From assembly GCF_001317345.1 (NCBI RefSeq), contig NZ_JXCG01000006.1, forward strand, positions 62,001-126,000: a stretch of DNA of 64,000 bases. Direction: 5' to 3'. Source of the stretch: Thermococcus sp. EP1 (GTDB taxonomy: Archaea; Methanobacteriota_B; Thermococci; Thermococcales; Thermococcaceae). Shown here piece after piece: positions 19,407-28,146 of the stretch. The first letter of the stretch is position 1, and each line of letters starts with the position of its first letter. Both the position numbers and the translations under genes were made by a program. A model generated the notes under the pieces. That model saw nothing but the letters and a program-made list of their open reading frames with translations. It did not search any database and was not told the DNA's origin.

Positions 19407-20369
19407 TCATTCCCTTGAAGAGTTTCTACTAGGCAATCTCCTCATGTAGAACCTTTTTCCTTCATACTCAAGTTCAATGAGCTTTCCCGTATTCAAAAGC
19501 TTTTCAACGATCCCCCAATCAACATTTGCTTTCTTTAAAAGTTCCTTCACGCCATCTTCTCTCATCGGATGAACACTTGTAATGCTCAATAAGTCCTCCT
19601 CAATGTTTCCCGTAAAAGTGAAAGCATTTCCTTCGTAGCCAATTAAATATTCAACCCTATCAACGACTTTTGCAAAAGTTTGAAATGCCTGGTTAATAAT
19701 TTCTTCTTTTGGTGGTTTAACCCATTTTTCCGTTGGTGGTCTAGTAGGAATTGAGATATATGCTACATCAGGCTTTAGCTCTTTCAAAAACTCTGCTATC
19801 CTCTCAAACTCATCTCTATAATTTACTCTATCAATTAGCATAGTCTCTGTTACAAGTTTACCTTTGAACTCTTTTCTAAACTCTATCATACCCTCCAAAA
19901 TTGTATTAAGCCTCAGACTTTTATGAGGCCTATCTATTTTTCGCCATAACTCCTCACTAACAGCATCAACTTTTAAAGAGACAAAATTAAACCTCAACAG
20001 CTCTTCTCTAACATCATCACGCCATATCAAAGAAGAGTTCGTTAAAATTGCAAGAGGAATTTCAAGTTCCGTTAAAAGCTCAGCCTCCTTTCCAAGGTTT
20101 ACATCTAATGTTGGCTCTCCATCAGGAACAAAAGTAATATAATCAATTTTCTCATTTCTTGCCTTCACTTCTTCAACTTTTTTCTTAACGTCTTCAAAGA
20201 TAACTTCTGGACCATAAAACTCCTTTCTTTTAATTTCCATCTTTAGGGTCTTCCCAACTTGGCAGTAAACACAAGCATAAGAACAAAACTTGTCGGGAAT
20301 GTTGTTTACCCCAAGACTTCTCCCAAGTCTGCGAGAAGGAACAGGACCAAAGGCAATTAAGGTTCTCAT
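19407..20369 (-). CDS. Radical SAM protein
   Basis: The protein of about 320 residues belongs to the radical SAM superfamily. The cluster motif is CSYACVYC (CxxxCxxC) near residue 34, followed by QVGKT. FVPDGEPTLDVN is the SAM-binding GGEP-like segment (here DGEPT). The N-terminus FGPVPSRRLGRSLGVN is characteristic of a widespread uncharacterised subfamily (COG0731-related), sometimes linked to tRNA wybutosine synthesis or protein modification. The ATG with GGTGAT upstream is used. It stands alone; function is not known. Confidence 0.85.
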   Translation of the reverse strand: MRTLIAFGPVPSRRLGRSLGVNNIPDKFCSYACVYCQVGKTLKMEIKRKEFYGPEVIFEDVKKKVEEVKARNEKIDYITFVPDGEPTLDVNLGKEAELLTELEIPLAILTNSSLIWRDDVREELLRFNFVSLKVDAVSEELWRKIDRPHKSLRLNTILEGMIEFRKEFKGKLVTETMLIDRVNYRDEFERIAEFLKELKPDVAYISIPTRPPTEKWVKPPKEEIINQAFQTFAKVVDRVEYLIGYEGNAFTFTGNIEEDLLSITSVHPMREDGVKELLKKANVDWGIVEKLLNTGKLIELEYEGKRFYMRRLPSRNSSRE

Positions 20370-20522
20370 AATGATCACCAAAATTAGGTTAATCTAATCC
20401 TCTTTAAGGTTTTTGTATTACCACTCTGGCTGACCATAGCCTTGGTAAAGGACATAAACCGCGTAACAACTAACTTTTTTCTTCTCCTAAAGACTAAGAC
20501 CCTCAGATAGGTAAGAGTTATT

Positions 20523-22319: not shown

Positions 22320-22772
22320 TCACCAACCACCTTTGCCTTGTCCCCTTCTGTGTCCCATTCCTTGACCTCTTCCACGGCCCATCGTTCGGCTGCTGCCTCT
22401 TCCAGGACCCATCCCCCCTTCAGGGCCTAGAATTGCTTGAGTCAATTCACCACGTAAAAATGCCCTCACAGCTTCTTCTACAGTCATGGTTGGAGGAGCT
22501 GAAACAAACCTTATGCCTGATGCTTGAAGTATTTGGGAAGAGTTGGGTCCAAACTGACCAGCTATGACAACATTTGCACTTTCATTTATACAAAATTGAG
22601 CCGCCTGAACACCAGCTCCTCTTGAAGCACTTGCACCAGGATTAGGAGCTACTTTAGTATTTTTTATTTGCCCTTCTTCAATATCCACTATTGTGAACAT
22701 TGGAGCTCTCCCAAAAGCTTGGTTAACAAAATCATTCAATCCACCTTTCGCAGTTGCTACCACTATTTTCAT
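22320..22772 (-). CDS. NifX/NifB-family (FeMo-cofactor-binding-like) protein with Arg/Gly-rich tail
   Basis: The protein of about 150 residues contains a dinitrogenase iron-molybdenum cofactor-binding domain (IPR003731 type): KIVVATAKGGLNDFVNQAFG, FTIVDIEEG, and the late NVVIAGQFGPNSSQIL. A C-terminal tail of about 30 residues is rich in Gly and Arg (MGPGRGSSRTMGRGRG). The domain binds metal clusters; no nitrogenase genes are present, so a general iron-sulfur or metallocofactor role is likely. The ATG with GGTGAT is the start. Linked with the adjacent small membrane protein and second NifX-like gene. Confidence 0.88.
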   Translation of the reverse strand: MKIVVATAKGGLNDFVNQAFGRAPMFTIVDIEEGQIKNTKVAPNPGASASRGAGVQAAQFCINESANVVIAGQFGPNSSQILQASGIRFVSAPPTMTVEEAVRAFLRGELTQAILGPEGGMGPGRGSSRTMGRGRGQGMGHRRGQGKGGW

Positions 22773-22805
22773 GATTATCACCCCAAAGAATTAGGGAGAC
22801 CGAAT

Positions 22806-23039
22806 TTAAAAAAGTTTGCATAAGCTCAAAAAACCTCCACCCCTATTTGGCCTCAGAAAACCTCTGATAATGAGAAGCACTATGAAGCCCAAGGTATACG
22901 GAAGGGCCACAAAAAGTAGCTTTATGAAAAAGTAAATAATTCCAATCAGCAAAAGCATGTCAATCAAATAATAAGGTTCTCTCAGGCGATAGTTAAAGAA
23001 ACTTTGTCTTCTATAGCCCCTCCCCATTCCTCGTGGCAT
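22806..23039 (-). CDS. Small membrane protein, 77 aa, Arg/Gly-rich ends
   Basis: The protein begins MPRGMGRGYRRQSFF, has two hydrophobic segments (YLIDMLLLIGIIYFFIKLL and ALPYTLGFIVLLII) and ends RPNRGGGF plus a short tail. The N-terminal MPRGMGRG is the same as the DUF134 regulator at 28146 and resembles the tails of both NifX-like proteins. GGAGGATTAAAA precedes the ATG. It sits between the two NifX-like genes and probably belongs to the same system. No known family recognised. Confidence 0.6.
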   Translation of the reverse strand: MPRGMGRGYRRQSFFNYRLREPYYLIDMLLLIGIIYFFIKLLFVALPYTLGFIVLLIIRGFLRPNRGGGFLSLCKLF

Positions 23040-23070
23040 TTTTAATCCTCCAAAAATTAAAGAGAAAAGT

Positions 23071-23670
23071 TCACCACCAGCCAAAATATCTAGCTATCCA
23101 GTTTCTTCTATTTGGCATTCCAGTCCATGGACAGTATCCTAATCTTGCTCCCCAGCCACGTCCTCCTCTACCCCAACCTCTACCAAATCCTCCTCCTATA
23201 CCTCTACCAAATCCTCTACCCCAACCAAAGCCGTACGCTGGATACGGTGGAACAGGAGGATAATACTGTGGGTTCTGGGAGGACACTTGAACAGGAGGAT
23301 AAGATGGAGCTCGTGGAAATTCTGATGGTGGCGAAGGAGTTTCTCCCTTTATAATTCTGTCAACAGCTTCCTTTATTGATGTTCCTGCCGGAAAGGTGTA
23401 GTATTTGATCCCAGCTGCTTGAATGGCACCCATGGCATTTGGCCCTATTTGTGATGCTATTATTGTATCAACCCCTTCGTTTATAAGTGCCTGTACAGCT
23501 ATTGGACCAGCCCCTCCTCCTGCGTATGCAGCTTGATTTTGGAGTACTTTGACATTCTTTATCTCCCCATTCTCCACATCAACTATTGTAAACACTGGTG
23601 CCCGCGCAAATACTGGAGCTATGGTATCTTCCAATCCTCCATTTGTCGAACTTGATATTCCAATCCTCAT
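23071..23670 (-). CDS. NifX/NifB-family protein with Pro- and Gly/Arg-rich tail
   Basis: The protein of about 199 residues has an N-terminal cofactor-binding-like domain (FTIVDVENGEI, LINEGVDTIIASQIGPN) and then a Pro/Ser/Tyr-rich segment. A run of Gly, Arg, Phe and Trp with repeated GRG and GWG follows, and the end is GYCPWTGMPNRRNWIA. Only the first 110 residues are needed for the family, so the tail is a large addition. Several ATGs occur at the start; the one with GGTGATGAGG upstream is chosen. It has its own promoter with a GTGCATATGCAC palindrome. Confidence 0.85.
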   Translation of the reverse strand: MRIGISSSTNGGLEDTIAPVFARAPVFTIVDVENGEIKNVKVLQNQAAYAGGGAGPIAVQALINEGVDTIIASQIGPNAMGAIQAAGIKYYTFPAGTSIKEAVDRIIKGETPSPPSEFPRAPSYPPVQVSSQNPQYYPPVPPYPAYGFGWGRGFGRGIGGGFGRGWGRGGRGWGARLGYCPWTGMPNRRNWIARYFGWW

Positions 23671-23697: not shown

Positions 23698-23727
23698 GTG
23701 CATATGCACAAAATCTTAAAAACTTTT
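23698..23727 (-). promoter_or_regulatory. Promoter and palindromic operator of the NifX-tail gene
   Basis: GTGCATATGCAC (23698-23709) is a perfect 12-bp palindrome. On the minus strand it follows the TATA-like AAGTTTTTAAG (around 23716-23727), that is, between TATA box and expected start. The block is repeated at 24031, before the broken NifX-like gene and the divergent MinD-type gene. Confidence 0.5.
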
Positions 23728-23765
23728 CGATTAACTTAACATTTAGCCGGAACATCAGTTTTCTG

Positions 23766-24012
23766 CTACTTTTCTTCAAATTCATTCCAGATTTCGTCAA
23801 ACTTCCTCCCACAATATGCTTGAGCACAATGTTTAAACCTCTCGGCTGAGCGAAGAACACAATTTAACGCTCCGTTTGATCTCTTTTCCACTAATTCAAA
23901 ACTTGCATCACCCCCTGATTTCGTATATCGAGAAAAATTTTGAATCCCCATAGTGAGTATCTGCCAAAGTTTCATAATCTTTCATACCAAATGCAACTCT
24001 AAGCTTTCTCAT
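23766..24012 (-). pseudogene. Third NifX-family gene, frameshifted
   Basis: The first frame reads MRKLRVAFGMKDYETLADTH then YGDSKFFSIYEIRG and a stop. The continuation FELVEKRSNG, then AERFKHC and a short C-terminus, lies in the next frame, with the shift in a run of five G (AGGGGGTGAT). Removing one G gives one 81-residue frame; intact family members are over 100 residues, so the end is also short. A promoter and palindrome similar to the neighbouring gene lie upstream. Confidence 0.65.
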
Positions 24013-24030
24013 TTCCAGATCATCATGATA

Positions 24031-24056
24031 GCATATGCACAAAATTTTTAAAGTTT
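24031..24056. promoter_or_regulatory. Second copy of the palindromic promoter element
   Basis: GCATATGC followed by ACAAAATTTTTAAAGTTTT repeats the block at 23698. On the minus strand it serves the broken NifX-like gene with the same TATA-then-palindrome order. On the plus strand ATTTTTAAAG is placed about 35 nt before the MinD-type gene, with the palindrome upstream, so one site may control both directions. Confidence 0.45.
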
Positions 24057-24085
24057 TAGGCCTCCCTAACTCTGGAGGTGAACAC

Positions 24086-24946
24086 ATGCAAATAGCAGTG
24101 AGTGGGGGTAAAGGAGGAACAGGAAAATCGACAGTTGCAATTAACCTAGCAATAGCCCTAAAGGAATATTTCGACCTTGCATTAGCTGATTTAGATGTTG
24201 AAGCACCAAATGACCACATACTCCTTAATGTTGAGCTTCAAAATGAAGAACCTGTCAACATGTTTATGCCTCGTTTTGACTATTCAAAGTGCATCAAATG
24301 TAGAAAGTGTGCTGAGATTTGTGAAGAAAATGCAATAATCACTATGAAGGATGGAACCCCCTTCTTGATACCAACTTTATGTTCTGGTTGTAGAGGATGT
24401 GAGATAGTATGCCCGGTTCCGGAGGCAATATTGGAGAGACAGAAAACCATGGGGCACACATACCTAACAAACACTGTCTATGGATTTCCCCTCATAACAG
24501 GCAAACTCTTGGAAGGAGAAGAGAGAGCTATGCCAATTGTAGTTGCAGCAAAAGAGAGAGCACAAAAGCTCGAGAAAAAGCTTTTACTAGTAGATACTGC
24601 TGCAGGTACAAGTAACACCGTTTCCAAAGCTTTAGAAAATTCAAAACTGTTAATTGCAGTTACAGAACCAACTCCATTGGGTCTGCATGATCTCGAACTC
24701 ATACTAAAGCTTGCAGAGCTTATGGGTATTGAGACTTGGATAGTCCTCAATCGAAGCAGCCTTGGTAATAGGGAAGGAGTTCAAAAAGTGGCAAAAGAAT
24801 ACAAAGTAGAGATAGTCGCAGAAATTCCATATAGCGAGAATATAATCCGCAGCTATATTGAGGGGAAGCCTATAGTGTTAAGCGAGAATAAAGAGGCAGA
24901 GGTCTTCAAAGAACTTGCCAAAAAAGTTGCAGAATACGTGGGGTGA
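24086..24946 (+). CDS. MinD-superfamily ATPase with inserted ferredoxin domain
   Basis: The protein of about 286 residues is a deviant Walker A ATPase (SGGKGGTGKST at residues 7-17) interrupted by two 4Fe-4S motifs (CIKCRKCAEIC and CSGCRGCEIVCP at about residues 72-116). It belongs to COG1149, which co-occurs with NifX-like proteins. It is probably an iron-sulfur carrier or assembly ATPase related to Mrp/NBP35. GGAGGTG precedes the ATG. Its end abuts the paralogue, which it probably binds. Confidence 0.9.
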   Translation: MQIAVSGGKGGTGKSTVAINLAIALKEYFDLALADLDVEAPNDHILLNVELQNEEPVNMFMPRFDYSKCIKCRKCAEICEENAIITMKDGTPFLIPTLCSGCRGCEIVCPVPEAILERQKTMGHTYLTNTVYGFPLITGKLLEGEERAMPIVVAAKERAQKLEKKLLLVDTAAGTSNTVSKALENSKLLIAVTEPTPLGLHDLELILKLAELMGIETWIVLNRSSLGNREGVQKVAKEYKVEIVAEIPYSENIIRSYIEGKPIVLSENKEAEVFKELAKKVAEYVG

Positions 24947-24951
24947 GAAGG

Positions 24952-25839
24952 ATGCAGATCGCGATAGCAAGCGGAAAAGGTGGAGTTGGAAAGTCAAGTG
25001 TTACTGCTTCACTAGTTTACCTTCTTAAAGACACTTATAAGCTAATAGCGATTGATGCTGATGCTGATGCGCCTAATCTGGACTTACTCTTTAATGTGGA
25101 GAAATGGGAAGAGGAAAAAGAACTCATAGGAGCAAAAGTTGCCAAAATAAACACAGAAACATGCATACAATGTGGTATATGTGCTGAGAGATGTCCTTAT
25201 GATTGTATAAACTTCATTGATGGAGATTACATAGTGAATGAATTAACATGTGAAGGTTGTGGTGTTTGCAGGCTTGTGTGTCCAGTGAAAGGAGTAATCA
25301 CTTTAGAAGAAGTTCGGTCTGGCATAATTAGAAAGACAACGACAAAATACAACTTTCCCTTAATCTCAGCACAGCTTGATGTGGGTAGACCAAATAGTGG
25401 AAAGCTTGTTACTGAAGAGAAAGAATGGGCCAAGAAAATTATGAAAGAACAAAATCTAGAACACATGATAGTGGACTCAGCAGCAGGGATTGGATGTCAA
25501 GTAATAGCAAGTCTTGGAGGCGCAGATGCAGTAATACTTATTGCGGAGCCAACTCCTGCTTCATTGAGTGATGTAAAGAGAGTTTACAAAGTTGTTCAGC
25601 ACTTTAGAGAACCAGCTTACCTAATAATCAATAAAGCAGACCTAAATCCAGGGTTTAGAAGATTACATGAGTTTGCTGAGGAAGAAGATATACCTATAAT
25701 CGGCGAGATACCGTATGACAAAGCAGTTCCAAAAAGTATGACAATGCTTCAACCAGTTATTGAAGCATTTCCAGAGTCTAAAGCATCTAAAGCTCTTAAA
25801 GAAATTGCAAAGATAGTAGAAGAAGAGATTTTAAGATAG
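24952..25839 (+). CDS. MinD-superfamily ATPase with inserted ferredoxin domain, paralogue
   Basis: The protein of about 295 residues has the P-loop SGKGGVGKSS, DADADAPNLDLLF as switch region, and two ferredoxin motifs, CIQCGICAERCPYDC and CEGCGVCRLVCP. It is clearly paralogous to the preceding gene, and the pair probably forms a heterodimer. The ATG is preceded by GGTGAGAAGG that overlaps the previous stop, so translation is coupled. Function as for its neighbour: handling of iron-sulfur clusters, inferred from family. Confidence 0.9.
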   Translation: MQIAIASGKGGVGKSSVTASLVYLLKDTYKLIAIDADADAPNLDLLFNVEKWEEEKELIGAKVAKINTETCIQCGICAERCPYDCINFIDGDYIVNELTCEGCGVCRLVCPVKGVITLEEVRSGIIRKTTTKYNFPLISAQLDVGRPNSGKLVTEEKEWAKKIMKEQNLEHMIVDSAAGIGCQVIASLGGADAVILIAEPTPASLSDVKRVYKVVQHFREPAYLIINKADLNPGFRRLHEFAEEEDIPIIGEIPYDKAVPKSMTMLQPVIEAFPESKASKALKEIAKIVEEEILR

Positions 25840-26718: not shown

Positions 26719-27819
26719 ATGGCGAAGTGTGAATTATGTGGGTACGAGTCTGAAGAAATTAGTGAAGCAATTGGGGTATGTGTTAACTGCCTTAGGAAAA
26801 ACCCTCAAAAAGCTTTAGAAAAAGTTATGAAGTCTCATTTCAGATGGCGGAAGCTAATAAACTTGCCTTCCCTTCCTCCTCAAAACGGAGAAATTTCCTG
26901 TAAAATCTGTGTTAATGAATGTCAAATTCTAGAAGGAAATCCTGGCTATTGTGGGATAATCTGGAACAGAAAAGGAAAATTGGTGCCAATAACTGGAAGT
27001 TTTGACTATGGATACCTCCACTGGTATCTTGATCCTCATCCCACAAACTGTGTTGCACAACCTGTGTGTCCTGAGGCAAAACACAGAGGATTCTGTAACT
27101 TAGCAGTCTTTTTCGCCGGCTGTAACTTAGATTGCCTCTTTTGCCAAAACATAGAACACAAATACATGATAAAAAATGGAAATATCGATCCTTTAGCGGG
27201 AATTATCATAAGCTCAGAAGAACTTGCTAATGTTGCTATGAAAAGAGAGGTCTCTTGTGTATGTTACTTTGGTGGAGATCCCACACCACACGCACCTTAT
27301 GCAATTAAAACCTCAAGAGAAATCCTCAAACGAGCAAAAAATATCGAATCAACAAAAAGGATTTGCTGGGAAACAAATGGTCTCGAAAACCCAAATATTA
27401 TGAAAGAAATGGCCAAATTAAGCATTGAAAGCGGAGGAATAATAAAAATTGATTGGAAAGCATACACACCCCAAGTTTATGAGGCCTTAACAGGCATAAA
27501 CGGAGAAAAAGCCCTTCAAAGAATAAAGGAAAACATAAAACTTATTTCTTCAATGAAAACAAGAAACGAACCCCCACTGTTAGTCGTGAGCACTCTTGTA
27601 GTTCCTCATTACATTGACGGGGAGGAGGTCAGAAAAATAGCAACATATCTTGCAAAACTGGATCCAGAGATTCCTTACGTTCTTCTCGGTTTTGCTCCTC
27701 AGCACTTAATGCATGATGTTCTACCTACAAGCAAAAAACAAATGGAAGAGGTCTATCATGCAGCTAAAGAGGAAGGTATAAAAGAAGTTTACATAGAGAA
27801 TTACTGGCTCTTAAGGTGA
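26719..27819 (+). CDS. Radical SAM protein with N-terminal zinc-finger-like Cys motifs
   Basis: The protein of about 366 residues starts with CELCGYESEE and CVNC, then CKICVNEC and YCGI, before the radical SAM core. The cluster motif is AGCNLDCLFCQN and the SAM-binding motif YFGGDPTPH. The family resembles PflA-type activases (COG1180/COG1313), which install glycyl radicals or modify proteins. A TATA box TTTATAAAAT lies about 25 nt before the ATG, inside the end of the preceding gene, so the message is probably leaderless. The 3' end overlaps the convergent DUF134 gene. Confidence 0.85.
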   Translation: MAKCELCGYESEEISEAIGVCVNCLRKNPQKALEKVMKSHFRWRKLINLPSLPPQNGEISCKICVNECQILEGNPGYCGIIWNRKGKLVPITGSFDYGYLHWYLDPHPTNCVAQPVCPEAKHRGFCNLAVFFAGCNLDCLFCQNIEHKYMIKNGNIDPLAGIIISSEELANVAMKREVSCVCYFGGDPTPHAPYAIKTSREILKRAKNIESTKRICWETNGLENPNIMKEMAKLSIESGGIIKIDWKAYTPQVYEALTGINGEKALQRIKENIKLISSMKTRNEPPLLVVSTLVVPHYIDGEEVRKIATYLAKLDPEIPYVLLGFAPQHLMHDVLPTSKKQMEEVYHAAKEEGIKEVYIENYWLLR

Positions 27820-28146
27820 TTCCTCCTTTGGAATTTCATTTCCTTGGGCAAGAATTATCAACTCCCTCCCTTCAACAAGCATTTGAGCAACTTTTTTTCT
27901 CGCTGATGTTAATGCTCTCCACACTGTTCCTCTCGAAACACCTATTCTTTGGCCAGCCTCCTCCTGCGTTAACCCTTCATAATCAACTAATCTCAATACC
28001 TCAAACTCCTCATATGTCATGAAGATTGGAGGTTGAGGAGGGCCAAACGGAGGCTTAGCCGGATAAAAGTGTCTAACCTCAGGAATAAAACCTATAAAAC
28101 GCATTTTCCTTCTCCGACCCCTACCTCTTCCCATTCCTCGGGGCAC
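27811..28146 (-). CDS. DUF134-family DNA-binding regulator
   Basis: The protein of about 111 residues begins MPRGMGRGRGRRRK and has a sigma-70 region 4-like helix-turn-helix (YEGLTQEEAGQRIGVSRGTV). PIFMTYEEFEVLRLVD is the family core. DUF134 genes usually lie beside NifX-like genes, as here. The start is a GTG that follows AGGTGA; it gives the family N-terminus, while an upstream start would add an unrelated extension. It is the likely regulator for the palindromic operators near 23698 and 24031. Confidence 0.8.
   Translation of the reverse strand: MPRGMGRGRGRRRKMRFIGFIPEVRHFYPAKPPFGPPQPPIFMTYEEFEVLRLVDYEGLTQEEAGQRIGVSRGTVWRALTSARKKVAQMLVEGRELIILAQGNEIPKEESP

Follow-up and report, generated by a model that had tools for sequence, protein, structure and literature searches.

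Between positions 23698 and 24056 of a 64,000-nucleotide stretch of the Thermococcus sp. EP1 genome (the window, i.e. the whole DNA that was analysed), a short palindrome accompanied by an AT tract is found twice in a divergent regulatory region. This arrangement raises the question of whether the palindrome is an operator, which genes it serves and which protein would recognize it.

The palindrome and its repeat in the window

The exact palindrome GTGCATATGCAC (box A) at 23698-23709 precedes an intact NifX-like gene (NifX1), and GCATATGC (GCATATGCAC plus the next two bases) at 24031-24040 is present between a broken NifX-like gene (the NifX4 relic) and a MinD-type gene (MinD1). On the plus strand an AT tract follows each of these palindromes, and the segments 23700-23726 and 24031-24057, including palindrome and AT tract, form a 27-nt direct repeat with 85% identity. 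Read on the minus strand, both elements have the order of TATA, palindrome and NifX-like frame (NifX1 and the relic, respectively), and on the plus strand the second element reads as palindrome, TATA, TTAGGCCTCCCTAA and the MinD1 start (24086). The earlier note had described one such element before the intact gene, a second before the broken copy and the divergent MinD-type gene, and a common order and orientation relative to the two minus-strand frames, and all of this is borne out by the letters. Its description as a duplicated element is right in so far as the repeat is real; the arrangement is rather one operator placed at several promoters of a regulon.

In the window, GCATATGC occurs three times against 0.36 expected, a count reached in none of 100 shuffles, and GTGCATATGCAC with up to two mismatches occurs four times against 0.91 expected, a count reached in one of 100 shuffles. 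The third GCATATGC (48372) is without such an AT tract. The palindrome signal of the window alone is modest and mildly above chance, and it is the comparative signal which is decisive. The features of the locus are collected in Table 1.

Table 1. Genes and promoter elements of the locus, in window coordinates.
Feature	Position	Strand	Remarks
Box A GTGCATATGCAC	23698..23709		Few nt downstream of the NifX1 TATA tract (minus-strand promoter); 73/163 exact family sites precede NifX1
NifX1 promoter TATA tract	23714..23724	-	TATA 3-7 nt upstream of box A in 62/73 NifX1 sites (strict pattern)
Degenerate iron-box-like TTAAGTTAATCGAA	23726..23739	-	Upstream of NifX1 TATA; two departures from TTAGGNNNNCCKAA
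NifX1, intact NifX-like gene	23071..23670	-	PF02579, E 3.8e-21; start inferred at MRIGISSS
NifX4 relic, second NifX-like gene, in two frames	23766..24021	-	ORFs 23766-23975 and 23908-24021
Degenerate box A GCATATGCAC	24031..24040		Downstream of TATA for the relic; upstream (BRE side) for MinD1
MinD1 TATA tract TTTTTAAAG	24045..24053	+	Near-symmetric; overlaps the opposite promoter's tract
Box B TTAGGCCTCCCTAA, DtxR/IdeR-type iron box	24056..24069		Exact, matches TTAGGNNNNCCTAA; between TATA and MinD1 start
MinD1, MinD/Mrp-type P-loop NTPase with ferredoxin-type 4Fe-4S insert	24086..24946	+	E 1e-60 or better in 85/94 family genomes
MinD2, second NTPase of MinD1 type	24952..25839	+	Downstream of MinD1
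Degenerate box A GCATAAGC (minus strand GAGCTTATGCAAAC)	22818..22825		Upstream of NifX2 TATA
NifX2 promoter box B TTCGGTCTCCCTAA (minus strand)	22791..22804		Box B pattern
NifX2, further NifX-like gene	22320..22772	-	PF02579, E 1.1e-19
DUF134 protein, sigma-region-4-like HTH	27811..28146	-	Proposed box A binder; PF02001, E 1.3e-24

The NifX2 promoter is a weaker version of the MinD1-type order (palindrome, TATA, box B). Elsewhere in the window, TTAGGTTAATCTAA at 20384-20397, one mismatch away from the iron box, is found just upstream of a radical SAM gene (19407-20381, minus strand), which may share the iron input. A small protein (22806-23084, MPRGMGRGYRR...) and the DUF134 protein (MPRGMGRGRGR...) have in common an unusual Gly/Arg-rich stretch near the N-terminus.

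Sites and regulon of box A in Thermococcaceae

The exact 12-mer GTGCATATGCAC was sought in 94 Thermococcaceae genomes, with the same letters in reversed order as control. It was found at 163 sites in 85 of the 94 genomes against a single site for the control, and it is absent from 21 sister-family genomes. Conservation near orthologous genes was one of the two checks on which the earlier note had made its idea depend, and the palindrome is indeed kept before NifX-like and MinD-type genes. That the palindromes are chance or compositional features, for which the one window shuffle reaching the near-match count may be cited, is already refuted by these counts and by the fixed position relative to TATA (see below), and this explanation is left with practically no probability.

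Genes starting within 250 nt of a site were clustered and then assigned in order of preference. NifX1 received 73 of the 163 sites, NifX3 39, a CDF (cation-efflux) gene 28, NifX2 four and MinD1 two, with 17 sites unassigned. Altogether 116 sites precede NifX-like (PF02579) genes and 146 precede NifX1, NifX2, NifX3, CDF or MinD1, where a NifX class denotes the best BLAST match to the home-genome proteins and Pfam was run on examples only. The home genome (1.82 Mb) has two exact 12-mers and none with one mismatch; its second copy precedes NifX3 (PF02579), divergent from an FmdE-family gene (L073 1056-2290). In other genomes one palindrome is present between divergent NifX1 and NifX4 genes, and intact relatives of NifX4 face NifX1 at 13 sites, one of these relatives being a PF02579 protein (E 1.5e-11). 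The FmdE, Hef, DUF364, CooC-like and NifX4 genes found at sites are not claimed as targets, because their site is mostly common with a NifX gene on the opposite side. Another gene, at four palindrome sites, which is putatively WtpA, was also rejected as a target: three of these sites are common with a divergent NifX1 and the sole site of its own is in G036.

The 17 unassigned sites were read by their letters, and these readings are kept outside all regulon counts. Sites cut by contig ends were read as NifX1 (G008:C12), CDF (G078:C18) and NifX3 (G015:C171). Six sites (G015:C164, G028:C2, G036, G051, G054:C1 and G059) have a second feoA-like gene no further away than about 0.5 kb, and six face a gene read as Mrp-like at a distance of 83-102 nt. 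Four genomes which are at least 95% complete and lack the exact 12-mer (G017, G019, G021 and G073) have GCATATGCAC or TTATGCAC before MinD1. As judged from its conservation, box A is a transcription-factor operator with a conserved regulon in Thermococcaceae. A search for the string GTGCATATGCAC in the literature, largely outside subscription journals, has returned no paper with a related title.

Promoter geometry and the iron box across TATA

With strict TATA patterns applied to the 163 sites, box A was found mostly 3-5 nt from TATA, on either side of it. TATA ends 3 or 4 nt before box A in 56/73 NifX1 sites and 5 nt before it in 17/28 CDF sites, and it begins 4 nt after box A in 37/39 NifX3 sites; the remaining sites are misses of the strict pattern or real departures. 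The position of box A relative to the core promoter is fixed and mostly constant within a gene class. The earlier note had placed the palindrome between TATA and start, which holds for NifX1 and the relic and fails for MinD1, NifX2 and NifX3, where the palindrome is on the BRE side of TATA. Archaeal transcription usually starts about 25 nt after TATA. Given such a start, box A abutting TATA is outside the transcript, and an RNA-level element was therefore rejected.

Since box A abuts TATA, a factor bound there would block TBP/TFB or RNA polymerase, and repression is the simplest reading of these sites. A dual role is a rather doubtful alternative, in which the DUF134 protein would repress with box A downstream of TATA (NifX1 and CDF) and activate by recruiting TFB on the BRE side (NifX3, NifX2 and MinD1). 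The two geometries, each mostly constant within its gene class, would suit such a role, and recruitment of TFB by a regulator is described for TFB-RF1 of Pyrococcus furiosus in an excerpt of PMC5937170; whether before or after TATA, however, an adjacent site can simply block the pre-initiation complex. Repression is kept here as the preferred reading.

In the MinD1 promoters the outer half-site of box A is often decayed and the rest is kept. GCATATGCAC is found in 33/85 of them, and TATGCAC occurs within 95 nt upstream of MinD1 in 77/85 genomes. The NifX1, NifX2 and MinD1 promoters mostly carry a second box across TATA from box A, which is TTAGGNNNNCCTAA or near to it (box B). The pattern TT[AC]GG....CC[TG]AA was found in 81/85 MinD1 promoters; half-site and box B follow in order in 74/85, and 67 of these have an identical spacing of 15 nt. 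Among the 50 NifX2 promoters examined, i.e. those of proteins with more than 55% identity in the 85 regions, TATGCA is present in 48 and is joined by box B, in order, in 45. For NifX1, the same TT[AC]GG....CC[TG]AA pattern is found within 45 nt before box A in 61/73 sites, and a wider box B pattern in 65/73 sites as compared to 17/2065 random stretches. Searching the 45 nt before the palindrome has revealed no box B in the NifX3 (0/39) and CDF (0/28) sites.

Letter for letter, TTAGGNNNNCCTAA is the 14-bp consensus proposed for single-dimer sites of IdeR/DtxR, as given in an excerpt of PMC8464063. The home genome has ten exact copies of box B, of which one each precedes FeoA, a ZnuA-type protein, an ABC ATPase and MinD1, the others being elsewhere, in several cases at the start of genes of a different type. 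When up to one mismatch is tolerated, the home genome shows no enrichment of box B (49 sites as compared to 87 of the reversed control), and it is therefore the position which gives box B its meaning. Of the 91 genomes with a feoA match, 30 loci were fetched; box B is present before feoA in 28 of the 29 loci located by script and is visible in the other two of the 30 (L423 and L431). Hence box B, which agrees with the DtxR/IdeR boxes in its letters (on the consensus excerpted from PMC8464063) and in its place before Thermococcaceae feoA, is read as the predicted iron box of Thermococcaceae, whereas box A (GTGCATATGCAC) is unrelated to it in sequence and is on the opposite side of TATA. For the P. 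furiosus DtxR homologue PF0851, the predicted regulon in an excerpt of PMC6316755 names riboflavin and RNA polymerase genes, and not those considered here.

Two loci with feoA-like genes may be mentioned at this point. In L217 (5262-8001) and in L202 (11881-14623) a further palindrome is followed, at a distance of about 0.26 kb, by two small feoA-like genes and a large one read as feoB. L217 has one exact and two near iron boxes between the palindrome and the feoA-like genes, and the other side of the palindrome is occupied in L202 by a gene for a putative tungstate/molybdate-binding protein.

As the NifX1, NifX2 and MinD1 promoters carry a DtxR/IdeR-type box across TATA, iron status and a second signal would be read together at these promoters. 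The idea of the earlier note holds in essence; what it overlooked is this DtxR/IdeR-type operator TTAGGNNNNCCTAA across TATA. On the sequence evidence, the operator, its regulon and the composite promoter can be considered established.

DUF134 as the candidate binder of box A

The DUF134 protein of the locus matches PF02001 with 87.1 bits (cut-off 27), and its HTH matches the Pfam family Sigma70_r4 (E 1.4e-9). Its structural model has a mean pLDDT of 82.6, and the top PDB hits of this model in Foldseek are sigma region 4 structures (best E 0.044), with no hit at E 0.001. The DUF134 profile also matched the DNA-binding domain of DeoR, but weakly (E 0.005), and this match was set aside. In its HTH the protein thus resembles region 4 of sigma-70, but it is small, stands alone or fused to a NifX-like domain, and is without the other sigma regions. 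Archaea are not known to have a sigma-type polymerase. With the window protein as query, 65 DUF134 loci were obtained in named genomes of Thermococcaceae, a few other archaea and many bacteria, and its closest named relatives are from Thermococcus and other Thermococcaceae.

The upstream regions were examined for 40 DUF134 proteins from outside Thermococcales with checked starts (alignment A2; 40 of the 44 non-Thermococcales loci L334-L378, leaving out L356, L359, L362 and L363, which have no readable start or length). In the 200 nt upstream, CATATG was found for 17 of these 40 genes against 2.07 expected, which makes it the first of the 64 palindromic hexamers (p 3.9e-12, uncorrected for relatedness). 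The Clostridia, as named by title, contribute 13/22 against 1.22, and the other genes 4/18 against 0.78, where CATATG is third in rank (p 0.007, likewise uncorrected). Moreover, CATATG is found inside longer palindromes, namely TTGACATATGTCAA in several Clostridia, TGAGCATATGCTCA at a deltaproteobacterial locus and TGCACATATGTGTA at a Sulfurospirillaceae locus, and also at Selenomonas and Solobacterium loci. TTGACATATGTCAA consists of two inverted TTGACA hexamers, a further likeness to sigma region 4 and its -35 element; it fits a sigma-4-like HTH acting as a dimer, but it overlaps the -35-like TTGACA element in Clostridia.

A PF02579 domain is present in the same chain in 18 of the 40 non-Thermococcales DUF134 proteins. 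In the sister families, 18 of the 19 genomes having both a DUF134 gene and a PF02579 gene carry the two on the same strand and contig at a distance of 0.1-1.4 kb, as read by eye, the exception being G102. Among 59 Thermococcaceae reads of the recognition helix (some genomes being read twice), 56 give SRGTVWRAL and the other three are one residue off. In the three sister-family DUF134 proteins read the helix is SQPTFHRI, and there the 12-mer is absent from all 21 genomes. No clear palindrome was seen in the upstream stretches of the sister families, where one of three DUF134 genes has CATATG upstream. The upstream CATATG, the PF02579 fusions and the recognition helices point to DUF134 as the best candidate binder of box A (nnnCATATGnnn palindromes), in agreement with the earlier note, which had named it a plausible binder. 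Its association with CATATG palindromes and with PF02579 is evident from the sequences themselves. Two further observations concern these proteins. In a sister-family genome (L313, 996-1817) an ORF read as DtxR/MntR-like immediately precedes the DUF134 gene and has the same orientation, as if sharing an operon. The DUF134-PF02579 fusions at L360 (4995-5765), L342 (4995-5714) and L364 (4986-5750) have His-rich tails, which may bind metal.

It is unlikely that box A, as a real operator of the same regulon, is bound instead by another Thermococcaceae regulator (e.g. of MarR, ArsR or Lrp type), the bacterial CATATG being a coincidence or a separate matter. A DUF134 match was found in 79 of the 85 palindrome-bearing genomes and in none of the other six (G009, G010, G075, G077, G078 and G080), all of which are in many contigs. 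The stated completeness is 99% for G080 (with 6% contamination and 140 contigs), 94% for G075 and 91% for G078, and the lack of a match may reflect draft gaps or another binder. In the other direction, six of the nine genomes lacking the exact 12-mer have DUF134; within Thermococcaceae DUF134 and the palindrome are both near universal, with exceptions both ways. Another binder would also be in line with the location of DUF134 outside 20 of the 65 MinD1 regions of at least 19 kb (it is inside 45) and with the weakness of CATATG outside Clostridia. Further, no box A was seen upstream of the window DUF134 gene, and no DUF134 gene among the gene clusters at box A sites, so that the bacterial arrangement is not seen here. 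Against this stand the first rank of CATATG upstream of foreign DUF134 genes, its presence in longer palindromes at loci as diverse as those listed above, the existence of the DUF134-PF02579 fusions, and the recognition helix and 12-mer, both of which differ in the sister families.

EnfR of Thermococcus onnurineus, an archaeal HTH repressor over the core promoter which controls the codh cluster (excerpt of PMC10570040), resembles in this respect the factor proposed here for box A. Its site in the same excerpt is an AT-rich pseudo-palindrome of 36 bp unlike GTGCATATGCAC, and EnfR was rejected as the binder because of this difference.

We return to DUF134, and consider it likely that a transcription factor, in all probability a DUF134 dimer, has the palindrome as its operator and controls a regulon of NifX-like, MinD/Mrp-type Fe-S NTPase and CDF exporter genes in Thermococcaceae. 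The operator would comprise 12-14 bp (TGTGCATATGCACA), and we infer that DUF134 would bind it as a dimer and that the bound factor would cause repression of genes for NifX-like cluster-binding proteins, the Fe-S NTPase and the metal exporter. The second signal can be guessed from the regulon and the fusions: it is probably the condition of the metal or Fe-S cluster with which the NifX-like proteins deal. More tentatively, and with somewhat less than an even chance, DUF134 proteins may be widespread metal- or Fe-S-cluster-responsive factors, with the PF02579 sensor fused in many Firmicutes and separate in Thermococcaceae, where NifX-like proteins would report cluster supply, to be read together with iron through the DtxR box across TATA.

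The gene content of the regulon recalls the ORP/MrpORP systems of Desulfovibrio, whose orp operons are reportedly coregulated by sigma-54 and a cognate regulator, whereas the Thermococcaceae promoters are of TATA type with box A and a DtxR-type box. In both, PF02579 proteins adjoin MinD/Mrp-type NTPases with ferredoxin domains; in MrpORP the NTPase and PF02579 are one chain, but in the window they are separate proteins, and the scores are 26-61 bits against the NCBIfam cut-off of 450. The PF02579-type domain of MrpORP binds a 3Fe-4S cluster, according to an excerpt of PMC6345978.

An operator with its regulon is a known kind of thing, and as far as seen the DUF134 factor, its operator and the link between them are new; a search on the function of DUF134 (COG1342, UPF0251), largely outside subscription journals so that a published regulon could be missed, has returned no paper with a related title. 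DUF134, a family common to archaea and bacteria, is here given a proposed function together with an operator and a regulon. Further, it names a composite promoter design of iron plus a second signal in hyperthermophilic archaea. Hence the sensing of Fe-S or metal cluster supply in anaerobes becomes a testable question.
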